A DNA stretch of 64,000 nt from Aerococcus urinae (GTDB lineage Bacteria; Bacillota; Bacilli; Lactobacillales; Aerococcaceae), in the NCBI RefSeq assembly GCF_001543175.1, contig NZ_CP014161.1, positions 310,001 to 374,000 on the forward strand, written 5' to 3'. This document shows, one piece after another, positions 30,448 through 33,486 of the stretch. Position numbers and translations under genes: made by a program. Numbering within the stretch: position 1 is the stretch's first letter; each line of letters begins with the position of its first letter. The notes below the pieces were generated by a model. The model worked only from the letters and a program-made list of their open reading frames with translations. It was not told where the DNA came from and made no database searches.

Positions 30448-30470
30448 ACTATGTGGAAAATTTGAATACC

Positions 30471-30625
30471 GAAGTGTTAGGCAGAGGCTCCTGTATAAAC
30501 ATAAGCTATCGCCCAAAAATGTCGAGAGACGCCAATGGGTAAAACAGAGATTGTCGAAATAAGGCTTTCTCCAGGTAGCTAAGAATTTTTTCTTTACGTT
30601 ATACAGTGCTAAAACTCAGACGAAG
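30471..30625 (+). ncRNA. M-box (ykoK) magnesium riboswitch aptamer
   Basis: The leader carries the conserved M-box segments in order: GTTAGGCAGAGGCTCCTGTA, GCCCAAAAATGTCGAGAGAC, GCCAATGGGT, a variable stem with GAAATAAGG, and ATACAGTGCTAAAACTC, closed by GAAG-type outer pairing. M-box RNAs bind several Mg2+ ions and switch off transport genes when Mg2+ is ample. It lies upstream of mgtA, the expected target. Confidence 0.95.
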
Positions 30626-30655
30626 CAACTCAATCAACTGAGCTTATTAATTATG

Positions 30656-30690
30656 GAGTCTCTACTTTCTTGGGTAGGGGCTCTTTTTAT
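30656..30690 (+). terminator. Riboswitch-controlled terminator
   Basis: GAGTCTCTAC pairs with GTAGGGGCTC, then T5. It is the likely expression platform of the M-box; ACTCAATCAACTGAG just before may take part in the alternative fold. Confidence 0.82.
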
Positions 30691-30720
30691 TTTGCCAAGG
30701 AAAAGATGGAGGTGATGGCT

Positions 30721-30813
30721 ATGGAGGAAGAGCAAGAACAGATAGCGGAAAGTCGACAGCAAGGGAGTTTAATGCTTGATCTCTTAAGGCCATTACCAGG
30801 GTCTTTGATTTAG
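30721..30813 (+). CDS. Acidic 30-residue leader peptide between the M-box and mgtA
   Basis: A small frame of 30 codons starting M-E-E-E-Q-E-Q-I-A-E and ending L-R-P-L-P-G-S-L-I. It has an excellent ribosome site (GGAGGTGAT at 30708-30716, 8 nt from the ATG), stronger than that of mgtA. In-frame ATGs at 30706 and 30715 could lengthen it by up to 5 residues. It stops 30 bp before the mgtA ATG. Acidic runs near the N-terminus are known to destabilise translating ribosomes at low Mg2+ in enteric bacteria, as with the MgtL leader. A control role here is inference. Confidence 0.6.
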   Translation: MEEEQEQIAESRQQGSLMLDLLRPLPGSLI

Positions 30814-30843
30814 CTTTAGGCTCCCACAGAAAGGAGCATAACG

Positions 30844-33486
30844 ATGAAAAAATTTGAAAACCAAGGTCGCTACCGGCAATTTGCTGCTTATTCTGAAGGC
30901 GAGCTTTTTAACTACTATAAAATTGATAAAAACGGCCTCAGCGATGACCAAGTCCAAGCCTTGCGAGAAGAATACGGAGAAAATGTGATCGATTATGGGG
31001 ACAAAGCTTCCTTAATGGAAGAACTTGTCCAAGCCTATCTCACCCCCTTTACCCTAATTTTAATTGGTCTGGCTATCATTTCATTCTTTACTGACTATGT
31101 CTTTGCGGCGGCGGATAGTCGTGATTGTATTAGTTCAGTGATTATTCTGGTCCTGGTCTTTATTTCTGGGACCGTATCCTTTATCCAATCCAAGCAATCC
31201 AATGATGCGGCGGAACACTTAAAAGAAATGGTAAAAGTGACTGCCAATGTCAAACGCGCGGGCGATTTTAACGAAATTCCAACCGAAGAGATTGTGTGCG
31301 GGGACTTGGTTAAATTATCGGCAGGAGACCTTATCCCTGCTGACTTGCGGATTATTGAAAGTAAGGACCTCTTTGTTTCCCAAGCGGCCATGACTGGAGA
31401 ATCCTATCCGGTAGAAAAAATGGCCCAGGCTACAGACCATGCTGAGACTGTGGTAGATGAGGCCAACTTGGCCTTTATGGGGTCAAATGTTATTAGTGGT
31501 AGTGCAATCGGGCTAGTGATTGCTGTCGGGGAGGACACCCTCTTTGGTGATATTGCTAAAACGGTGACCACTGAAGAAGAAGTCACCAACTTTGACATCG
31601 GAATTAGTAAAATTTCTACCCTCTTAATGCGCTTTATGGGAGTGATGGTTCCGGTAGTCTTTCTGATTAATGGTATCCATATGAAGAATTGGCTGGATGC
31701 TTTGATCTTTGCCATTTCGGTTGCGGTCGGCTTGACCCCGGAAATGCTTCCGATGATCGTGACCACTAACCTGGTCAAGGGGTCACAAACCATGGCCAAG
31801 GGCGGTACCATTGTAAAAAACTTGAATGCCATTCAAAGCTTTGGCGCTATGGATGTCTTATGTACCGATAAAACCGGGACCCTGACCCAAGATAAAATTG
31901 TTTTAGAAATGCATTTGAACTGTGATGGCGATGAAGACAGTGGGGTACTCCGCCATGCCTACTTGAATTCCTACTACCAAACCGGTTTGAAGAACCTGAT
32001 GGATGTGGCCATTATTGAAGCGACCCACCGGGAACTGGACCTGGACCCTAACTACTACCATAAAGTCGATGAAATCCCCTTTGACTTTGAACGGCGGCGG
32101 ATGAGTGTCGTTGTGGAAGATAAAGCGGGAAAACGGCAACTAATTACCAAAGGGGCGGTGGAAGAAATGCTAGCCATTTCCTCCCTGGTTCTCAAACAAG
32201 GCCAAGCCATTCCTTTAACGGATGATCTCCGGCAAGAAATCCGTCAACAAGTCAAAGATCTCAATGAAGACGGTCTAAGGGTCATCGGCATTGCTCAAAA
32301 AACCAACCCACCAGCAGTGGATGCTTTTAGCATTGAAGATGAGTCGGATATGCTTTTGATTGGCTACCTAGCCTTCCTTGACCCACCTAAGGAATCCACC
32401 CAACCGGCCCTCAAGGCTCTGGCTGACCACCATGTGGATGTGAAGGTTCTGACGGGCGATAATGAAGAAGTTACCCGGTCAGTTTGTCGTCAAGTAGGGA
32501 TTTCGGCAGATAGTATTATTAATGGGATTGACTTGGAAGCTATGGACGAGGAGGCCTTGGCTCAAGCGGTGGAAGACTACCAAGTTTTCGTCAAAATTTC
32601 TCCTCAACAAAAGGCCCAAATTACCCAAATTCTCCAAGATAACGGCCATGTGGTTGGTTTTATGGGTGACGGGATTAATGATGCCGCTGCCTTAACGACT
32701 TCTGATGTCGGGATTTCTGTTGATACTGCAGTCGATATTGCCAAGGAATCAGCCGATATCATTCTTTTAGAAAAAGATTTGATGATTTTAGAAAAGGGTG
32801 TCGTTTCTGGTCGGGAAATATTTGGAAATATTATGAAATATATTAATATTACGACTTCATCAAATTTTGGGAATACTTTTTCCATCTTGATGGCCTCCTT
32901 ATTCTTACCTTTCTTGCCCATGATGCCGACCCAACTTTTAGTCTTGAACCTGATCTATGACATCGCCTGCATTTCCATTCCTTGGGATCGCATGGATGCC
33001 TCCTACTTGAAGGAACCTAAGAACTGGGACGCTTCGCATGTGAAGAATTTTATGATTTACTTTGGTCCAATTTCTTCCATCTTTGATGTGCTTTCCTTTG
33101 TGGCGCTTTATCATTGGATTATTCCCCAAGTCCTAAACGGAACTTATTGGAGCTTATCGACGGGACAACAAGCAGTTTTTGAAGCCTTGTTCCATTCAGG
33201 TTGGTTCGTGGTTTCCTTATGGTCACAAACCCTAGTTCTTCATATGCTAAGAACGGAAAAACTACCCTTTATTCAAAGCCGGCCATCCTTTATCTTTACC
33301 ACGATCACGACCATTGGGATTATCTTTGGTAGTTTATTGCCTCGGACCAAGTTAGGCTTCTATCTAGGTTTAGCCCCCTTACCCGGATCTTTCTGGCTCT
33401 TACTGGTGGCTATTGTGATTTCCTATCTGGTCTTAGTGACCTTGGTCAAACATTTCTATGTTAAACATTATGGAAAGTTGCTCTAA
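30844..33486 (+). CDS. mgtA: Magnesium-importing P-type ATPase
   Basis: An 880-residue P3B-type ATPase for Mg2+ uptake. A cytoplasmic N-terminal cation-ATPase domain is followed by membrane helices M1-M2 (about 60-120), the actuator loop with T-G-E-S-Y-P-V-E, M3-M4, phosphorylated Asp342 in D-K-T-G-T-L-T, the K-G-A nucleotide motif, T-G-D-N and G-D-G-I-N-D hinge, and about six C-terminal helices. Length and motif set fit MgtA/MgtB. It is controlled by the M-box and probably by the acidic leader peptide, giving possibly two layers of Mg2+ sensing. Confidence 0.96.
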   Translation: MKKFENQGRYRQFAAYSEGELFNYYKIDKNGLSDDQVQALREEYGENVIDYGDKASLMEELVQAYLTPFTLILIGLAIISFFTDYVFAAADSRDCISSVIILVLVFISGTVSFIQSKQSNDAAEHLKEMVKVTANVKRAGDFNEIPTEEIVCGDLVKLSAGDLIPADLRIIESKDLFVSQAAMTGESYPVEKMAQATDHAETVVDEANLAFMGSNVISGSAIGLVIAVGEDTLFGDIAKTVTTEEEVTNFDIGISKISTLLMRFMGVMVPVVFLINGIHMKNWLDALIFAISVAVGLTPEMLPMIVTTNLVKGSQTMAKGGTIVKNLNAIQSFGAMDVLCTDKTGTLTQDKIVLEMHLNCDGDEDSGVLRHAYLNSYYQTGLKNLMDVAIIEATHRELDLDPNYYHKVDEIPFDFERRRMSVVVEDKAGKRQLITKGAVEEMLAISSLVLKQGQAIPLTDDLRQEIRQQVKDLNEDGLRVIGIAQKTNPPAVDAFSIEDESDMLLIGYLAFLDPPKESTQPALKALADHHVDVKVLTGDNEEVTRSVCRQVGISADSIINGIDLEAMDEEALAQAVEDYQVFVKISPQQKAQITQILQDNGHVVGFMGDGINDAAALTTSDVGISVDTAVDIAKESADIILLEKDLMILEKGVVSGREIFGNIMKYINITTSSNFGNTFSILMASLFLPFLPMMPTQLLVLNLIYDIACISIPWDRMDASYLKEPKNWDASHVKNFMIYFGPISSIFDVLSFVALYHWIIPQVLNGTYWSLSTGQQAVFEALFHSGWFVVSLWSQTLVLHMLRTEKLPFIQSRPSFIFTTITTIGIIFGSLLPRTKLGFYLGLAPLPGSFWLLLVAIVISYLVLVTLVKHFYVKHYGKLL

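Follow-up and report, generated by a model that had tools for sequence, protein, structure and literature searches.

The M-box (ykoK leader) is a Mg2+ riboswitch that permits readthrough of its terminator when Mg2+ is low. In erm-type translational attenuators, strand exchange exposes the downstream ribosome-binding site (RBS) when a ribosome is arrested on the leader ORF. For the enteric mgtA leader peptide MgtL, the study cited is reportedly that of Chadani (2017). The papers named below by PMC number are cited from excerpts. In E. coli, acidic residues near the start of a nascent chain cause ribosomes to pause or drop off, an effect exploited by MgtL, which has an acidic/Pro N-terminus and works via Rho-dependent termination (PMC11282234). 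In Salmonella, the uORF MgtQ lies between mgtC and mgtB; mutant analysis established a layout in which pairing of strands 1:2 and 3:4 alternates with pairing of strands 2:3, and the Asp2 and Glu5 codons lower translation of MgtQ itself and raise that of mgtB (PMC8092293). In Mycobacterium tuberculosis, an M-box and a uORF (uORF2, rv1805A) precede a Mg2+-related operon, the uORF being the very ORF that the M-box regulates, through a translational platform and Rho; the excerpts describe no acidic leader peptide or attenuator for rv1805A (PMC12810186). Our literature search, whose coverage mostly stopped short of subscription papers, found no report of acidic uORFs behind M-boxes; the excerpts it returned also mention an mgtE motif of Thioalkalivibrio, which is unrelated.

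We analysed a stretch of 64,000 nucleotides from Aerococcus urinae (hereafter the window; contig NZ_CP014161.1, positions 310,001 to 374,000), in which all the features described here lie on the forward strand. The M-box aptamer at 30466..30634 (Rfam RF00380, 138.2 bits, E 7.7e-32, gathering cut-off 44) is the single RF00380 match in the window's genome. It scores above the curated cut-off and is followed, before a Mg2+ transporter gene, by a terminator-type expression platform: an intrinsic terminator at 30655..30689, with a 13-pair stem (hairpin 30655-30684) and a T-run, located 5' of the leader ORF. Aptamer and terminator are ordinary for RF00380; the added feature is the leader ORF past the terminator. 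This ORF (30721..30813) has 30 codons from ATG 30721 to the stop TAG at 30811-30813, encodes MEEEQEQIAESRQQGSLMLDLLRPLPGSLI with the acidic N-terminus MEEEQEQ, and is preceded by the Shine-Dalgarno sequence (SD) GGAGGTGAT at 30708..30716 (duplex energy -13.6; 8 nt spacer after GGAGG). Because other in-frame starts lie upstream (TTG 30670, ATG 30706, GTG 30712 and ATG 30715, with weaker or absent SDs), we infer rather than observe that ATG 30721 is the exact start. The stop is separated by 30 nt from ATG 30844 of mgtA (30844..33486), which encodes a Mg2+-translocating P-type ATPase of 880 aa (TIGR01524, 1055.4 bits; NF011702, 1066.4 bits). The preliminary description of this locus had reported an M-box with terminator 5' of mgtA, a 30-codon frame with a near-perfect SD and a MEEEQEQ start, and mgtA 30 bp further on, all of which were recovered; the peptide, said to end in R-P-L-P-G, in fact ends in R-P-L-P-G-S-L-I.

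M-box loci were collected at several taxonomic levels. In the family, 44 of 76 genomes carry an M-box, at 47 sites (47 loci among the matches listed), and in the window's genus 11 of 15 genomes do. The order, in which 209 of 295 genomes gave M-box matches, contributed 120 further loci (30 among the matches listed, 30 chosen by hand and 60 chosen across genera), and the class sample comprised 30 loci among the matches listed, 3 of them from the order and 27 from outside it. An additional 26 loci came from one genus that we presume to be Streptococcus-like, this and similar genus labels being guesses from recall. Transporter genes were classified by phmmer as MgtA (94) or MgtE (26), and 2 MgtA and 1 MgtE were added by eye, for a total of 123. 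By eye, L040 and L041 had been taken for CorA and excluded, although phmmer assigns L041 to MgtA (E 1.6e-33). The 38 other M-box loci precede PAP2-, RodA-, LytR-, MgtC-like and other genes, as labelled by us, and include by our reading a truncated mgtA (L037), a transposase locus (L125) and lone small ORFs (L158, L185 and L186). For the class counts, the dinucleotide-shuffle counts and the folding with three footprints, the uORF was chosen on its SD only (of the ATG ORFs, the one whose SD was best, with an energy <= -8) and called acidic/Pro when residues 2-16 held at least three D, E or P. A score that includes D/E/P content chose it for the stop-position, folding-profile, step-correlation, early/late, pN/pS, genus-folding and terminator scans.

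Strong-SD uORFs were found at 91 of the 123 MgtA/MgtE loci, against 9.1 expected from dinucleotide shuffles, and acidic/Pro ones at 71, against 1.2 expected. By gene class, the latter precede 60 of 96 mgtA genes (61 of 97 if L041 is counted; the tables were computed as 60/96) and 11 of 27 mgtE genes. No acidic/Pro strong-SD uORF was present where the M-box precedes another gene (38 loci). The same family's TPP riboswitch leaders yielded one in 50, itself a 97-codon gene; four TPP "uORFs" of 97-100 codons resemble each other and are thus genes. At the level of genera, an acidic/Pro uORF is found at one locus at least in 35 of the 52 that bear a transporter locus, 17 do not satisfy this strict rule, and none of the 13 represented by other M-box genes has one. 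Position 2 is acidic (D or E) in 55% of the 75 non-redundant uORFs picked on the SD only, and in 9% of the 417 ORFs with at least 120 aa that were called mechanically in 464 kb of the window's genome (the window and 20 stretches of 20 kb). The same 464 kb hold 12 ORFs of 5-70 codons that lie outside long ORFs and have an SD energy <= -11; among these the leader ORF alone has at least five D/E/P in residues 2-16 (the 106 uORFs set beside this count were also picked by the score that includes D/E/P content). The shuffle counts, the contrast between gene classes and the window-genome count rule out a chance ORF. In the family genomes lacking an M-box, where MgtA was sought in 28 of 32, the 11 upstream stretches inspected contained no strong-SD uORF with an acidic start; the weaker MgtA matches are probably other P-type ATPases. 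Purine riboswitch leaders had also been considered as a control and were dropped, with matches in just 2 of 76 genomes.

Many of the 47 family leaders have a strong-SD uORF starting like MESSEKPVEHPGP, MDPEPDW, MEDGHRQ, MDSSRIQ or MDDNSRK; further starts are MDPKPRC, MDPWPSK, MPEPDSK and MDSSKQR. The peptides vary even inside the window's genus, where three loci have MVKRCIIS and one MTAEMIH, and three mgtE loci have no uORF between M-box and gene. In the order we found the families MDPVP/MEPVP, MDHPxP, MDDSSQ/MDESP, EDPAEPES and EDELEEPDS, SDPGS/EPGS, NDSPGDD and IDDHPEPH, and 15 of the 27 class loci outside the order have by eye an acidic/Pro peptide (MDSPSSSR, MEGSPS, MDGDPR or MDSSPS, for example). 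Pfam and NCBIfam gave no match for the seven uORF peptides scanned. A scan of genome contigs returned one distant archaeal relative. A different kind of uORF, basic and of 8-9 codons (MVKRCIIS, MVKRCILL, MIKRCILT or MVKRRILKN), is present at L003-L005, L163, L166 and L026; these uORFs have a very strong SD, end 111-125 nt before mgtA or mgtE and occur in two families.

In 108 of 119 non-redundant loci the M-box and the uORF are separated by a terminator-like hairpin, so that the uORF acts after the riboswitch. The position of the uORF stop varies from -177 to beyond the main start, and the uORF reaches within 5 nt of the main start, or over it, in 37 of 118 loci; such overlap adds direct interference. 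Re-initiation after the uORF stop, considered as a general rule, is unsupported given this range of stops. The comparison of relatives proposed in the preliminary description had named a conserved start, conserved acidic codons and a conserved stop position: strong-SD acidic/Pro N-termini do recur, in the 35 of 52 genera given above, and the stop position is not conserved.

That comparison had also named synonymous-biased substitutions. The ratio pN/pS of codons 2-16, computed as raw counts over related pairs without a significance test and for bases that are also constrained by RNA pairing, is below 1 in 13 of 14 groups, the exception being 1.12; L237 was left out, and none of the relatives fetched is close enough to the window's leader for such a comparison. 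After truncation at DDHPEP, the Streptococcus-like set gives 0.27 for codons 2-16. For codons 17-28 the ratio scatters around 0.9 and is below 1 in 8 of 13 groups, and the N-terminal value is the lower of the two in 9 of 13. The DDHPEP core is present in all 30 Streptococcus-like loci, and its codons show synonymous changes only in the alignment of 19 distinct Streptococcus-like sequences. Judged from these substitution patterns, the peptide is selected at its start.

Folding of the window leader with and without ribosome blocks predicts a switch made of four strands. Strand 1 (30711..30739) spans the uORF SD and start with the acidic codons 2-6, and strand 2 (30763..30797) covers codons 15-26, with the anti-anti-SD part GGGAGUUUAA at 30763-30772. 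Strand 3 (30816..30825), the predicted anti-SD UUAGGCUCCC, would pair with strand 4 in the closed state or with 30763-30772 in the open state. Strand 4 (30831..30837) is the mgtA SD AAGGAGC, in a predicted GCUCC/GGAGC hairpin. In the free RNA, without a ribosome on strand 1, strand 1 pairs with strand 2 and the mgtA SD has a computed probability of being unpaired of 0.29. This value rises to 0.84-0.86 with a ribosome on codons 1-9 and is again 0.29 with a ribosome on codons 11-21; a ribosome at codons 24-26 also opens the SD (0.84-0.85), and one at codon 30 does so partly (0.67). The open state lowers the summed opening cost (-15..+3) from 7.4 to about 2, although the mgtA start codon is more paired in it (0.16-0.31 unpaired, against 0.58 free). 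The overall stability of the window leader is not unusual (z -1.67; 13 of 200 shuffles fold as well).

The trend extends to the transporter leaders in general. A 29-nt ribosome was placed at each uORF codon and the cost of opening the transporter RBS (-15 to +3) was computed; profiles were obtained for 98 leaders, of which 95 entered the position correlation and 86 the early/late comparison. In the 77 leaders with an early motif, the RBS took 6.58 kcal/mol to open in ribosome-free RNA; the cost was down to 4.95 when the ribosome sat on codons 3-5 and up to 7.12 when it sat on codons 10-12. Subtracting the early from the late value (n=77) gave +2.17, where shuffled leaders gave -0.14 (standard deviation over 15 replicate means 0.10), and by genus 33 of 42 exceeded their own null median (Wilcoxon p 3e-7). 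With uORFs chosen on the SD only, three footprints gave the trend in 64, 59 and 62 of 74 loci. Nine loci with a DPG motif had a mean difference of +2.44, yet only 5 of them lay above their own null median. A simple coupling of motif position to the position of the folding step was tested, and the correlation is absent (rho 0.02, p 0.85, over the 65 loci, out of 95, whose step was at least 2); the generality therefore concerns the sign of the effect and not its exact alignment with the acidic codons. These computed profiles suggest that the transporter RBS opens more easily while a ribosome occupies the first codons, and that it closes once the ribosome has moved past them.

In the Streptococcus-like set, a 1:2 + 3:4 structure, derived from the very sequences on which it was scored, has 98% of cells paired and 6 of 29 pairs with a two-sided change, these changes falling mostly between two subtypes. 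Slid versions of the structure are 28-52% paired, and one of five measures was not above shuffles. The 2:3 helix is 92% paired, with no covariation. A stretch like UUGUCUAUUUGU, which in this set is part of strand 2, recurs in the 3' half of many uORFs (L016, L017, L059, L063, L136, L174 and L262); it is read in different frames, which points to RNA rather than peptide.

Like MgtQ, the window uORF is a short, strong-SD frame whose first codons include acidic ones and which precedes the gene of a Mg2+ P-type ATPase; by folding, it also has the alternative stem-loops (1:2 + 3:4 versus 2:3) over uORF and transporter RBS, and the translational control exerted by MgtQ is proposed for it as well. 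It differs in that it does not lie between mgtC and mgtB: the Bacilli uORFs are in the 5' leader, behind M-box and terminator and before mgtA or mgtE, they are longer, and no sequence homology with MgtQ is evident. As place and sequence differ, we describe the window uORF as working like MgtQ and do not file it as a member. To the reading that the leader ORF encodes a cis-acting leader peptide, stacked behind the M-box and operating in the manner of Salmonella MgtQ, we give a probability of about 0.6, and the best reading of the whole data set is probably a Bacilli-wide set of such peptides. That Mg2+ transporters across Bacilli are under two stacked Mg2+ sensors, the M-box for transcription and an acidic/Pro nascent peptide with a four-strand RBS switch for translation, of independent origin and convergent on enteric MgtL/MgtQ, seems to us slightly better supported than its opposite.

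On this reading, low Mg2+ would let transcription pass the M-box terminator, so that uORF and mgtA are transcribed. The acidic/Pro codons at the N-terminus would then slow ribosomes or make them drop off, leaving ribosomes on the first codons with few proceeding, a Mg2+ effect taken by analogy from the E. coli and Salmonella literature. In the folding model such a ribosome would block pairing 1:2, strand 2 would take the anti-SD (strand 3) and the mgtA SD would be free for translation. When Mg2+ recovers, ribosomes would pass the motif and cover strand 2, strands 3 and 4 would pair and mgtA translation would be switched off. Since the RBS is closed in the bare RNA, holding the switch open would require continual reloading of ribosomes onto the uORF, and pure drop-off without reloading would not turn mgtA on. 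Variants may be expected where the uORF reaches or overlaps the main start (about a third of uORFs), and in a group of loci, from the class but not from the order, that has a second terminator after the uORF. Unlike in erm-type attenuators, for which the signal is a macrolide, the signal here would be Mg2+ together with early acidic codons. Against this mechanism stand the MEEEQEQ start of the window, which has no proline, and the MVKRC-type uORFs, which are basic.

The preliminary description had invoked a mechanism like that of MgtL. The likeness of the peptides is partly borne out: acidic/Pro N-termini recur, and their chemistry is that of the EPDP motif of MgtL (excerpts of PMC11282234), the window having early acidic residues without an early Pro and relatives such as MDPEPDW and MEPVPIW having both. 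What falls away is the general need for the Rho route, and the predicted RNA layout is MgtQ-like. It seems to us quite improbable that translation of the uORF decides Rho termination before mgtA, with fall-off at low Mg2+ hiding the Rho site. The window's genome does have rho (610 bits), as do 62 others of the 76 family genomes, and in the window's genus the three rho-less M-box genomes also have no uORF, as a role of Rho there would predict (G003, G004 and G012, with no full rho match; their loci are L008, L009 and L011, and the M-box gene is mgtE). The folding signal, on the other hand, sits at the RBS of the transporter, and of 20 other genomes searched for rho, 8 gave no match over the cut-off and all 8 have a uORF; among them are all six Streptococcus-like genomes tested, G159, and G225, the last with no transporter found within 900 nt. 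As the six Streptococcus-like genomes keep the peptide without Rho, MgtL's route is not needed there, and Rho was rejected as the general route because the uORF is kept where rho is missing; it may have a role in the window's own genus. Transcription could also be controlled without Rho, if uORF translation acted on a second intrinsic terminator. A terminator-like hairpin does follow the uORF start in 9 of the 119 non-redundant loci, and at five of them (L259, L265, L267, L271 and L272), where a clear hairpin lies shortly before the gene, transcription attenuation is likely; the same scan found none in the other 110, the window included, and as an account of the set as a whole attenuation is very improbable.

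A further alternative keeps the opening of the transporter RBS by the uORF and changes the signal: the slow start would sense EF-P/ABC-F activity, proline charging or general translation stress, or nothing at all, as in steady coupling. The folding results are independent of what holds the ribosome, and in Bacillus subtilis ribosomes stall at Pro and Asp-Pro motifs unless EF-P or YfmR relieves them (excerpts of PMC11381351). We nevertheless consider this rather unlikely, given that the uORFs are found at Mg2+ transporters (71/123) and absent from other M-box genes (0/38) and from TPP leaders, and that an early Pro is missing from some leaders, the window's MEEEQEQ among them. To a peptide acting in trans, for instance as a small regulator of the transporter, we give hardly any credence: small hydrophobic peptides do lie between uORF and mgtA at some loci, but the C-terminal codons of the uORF are little constrained, its sequences differ between genera, it runs up to or over the main start at the 37 loci mentioned above, and the Pfam/NCBIfam scan of seven uORF peptides was empty.

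If the MgtQ-like reading with Mg2+ as signal is true, Mg2+ sensing by ribosome stability on acidic nascent chains would reach beyond enterics into many genera of Bacilli and would be combined there with a riboswitch for the same ion, and much of the length of the transporter leaders would be accounted for. Dozens of natural variants of low-Mg2+ sensing peptides (MDPxP, DDHPEP, SDPGS, EDPAEPES and MEEEQEQ, for example) would then allow the sequence rules of ribosome destabilisation to be tested directly in Gram-positive bacteria.

Other small ORFs were seen in these leaders. At L016, L023, L063, L070 and L177, a second small ORF of 28-42 codons lies directly 5' of mgtA and encodes a single hydrophobic helix that carries a basic tail (MMQFIFEFTLFLGIAWFLLNYFWRKKGE, for example); at L059 and L262-L264 a similar hydrophobic stretch continues in frame into mgtA. 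By analogy, these ORFs recall partner peptides of the MgtS/KdpF type. For the two of these small membrane ORFs that were scanned, Pfam and NCBIfam gave nothing above the cut-off, with three weak Pfam matches below it. At L158, L185 and L186, a small membrane ORF containing an acidic segment (MTIILASFVIAAHIVGHNMTEI...) comes after the M-box, and no long ORF was called within 900 nt; this ORF is a possible candidate for a Mg2+-regulated small protein. At L120, L123, L190 and L191, an M-box is followed by a leader uORF with DPG(A/S); no long ORF was called within 900 nt downstream at three of these loci, and L190 has a doubtful one. Tandem M-boxes are present at G212:C16:177527-178040 (L182) and at G476:C3:349678-350100.
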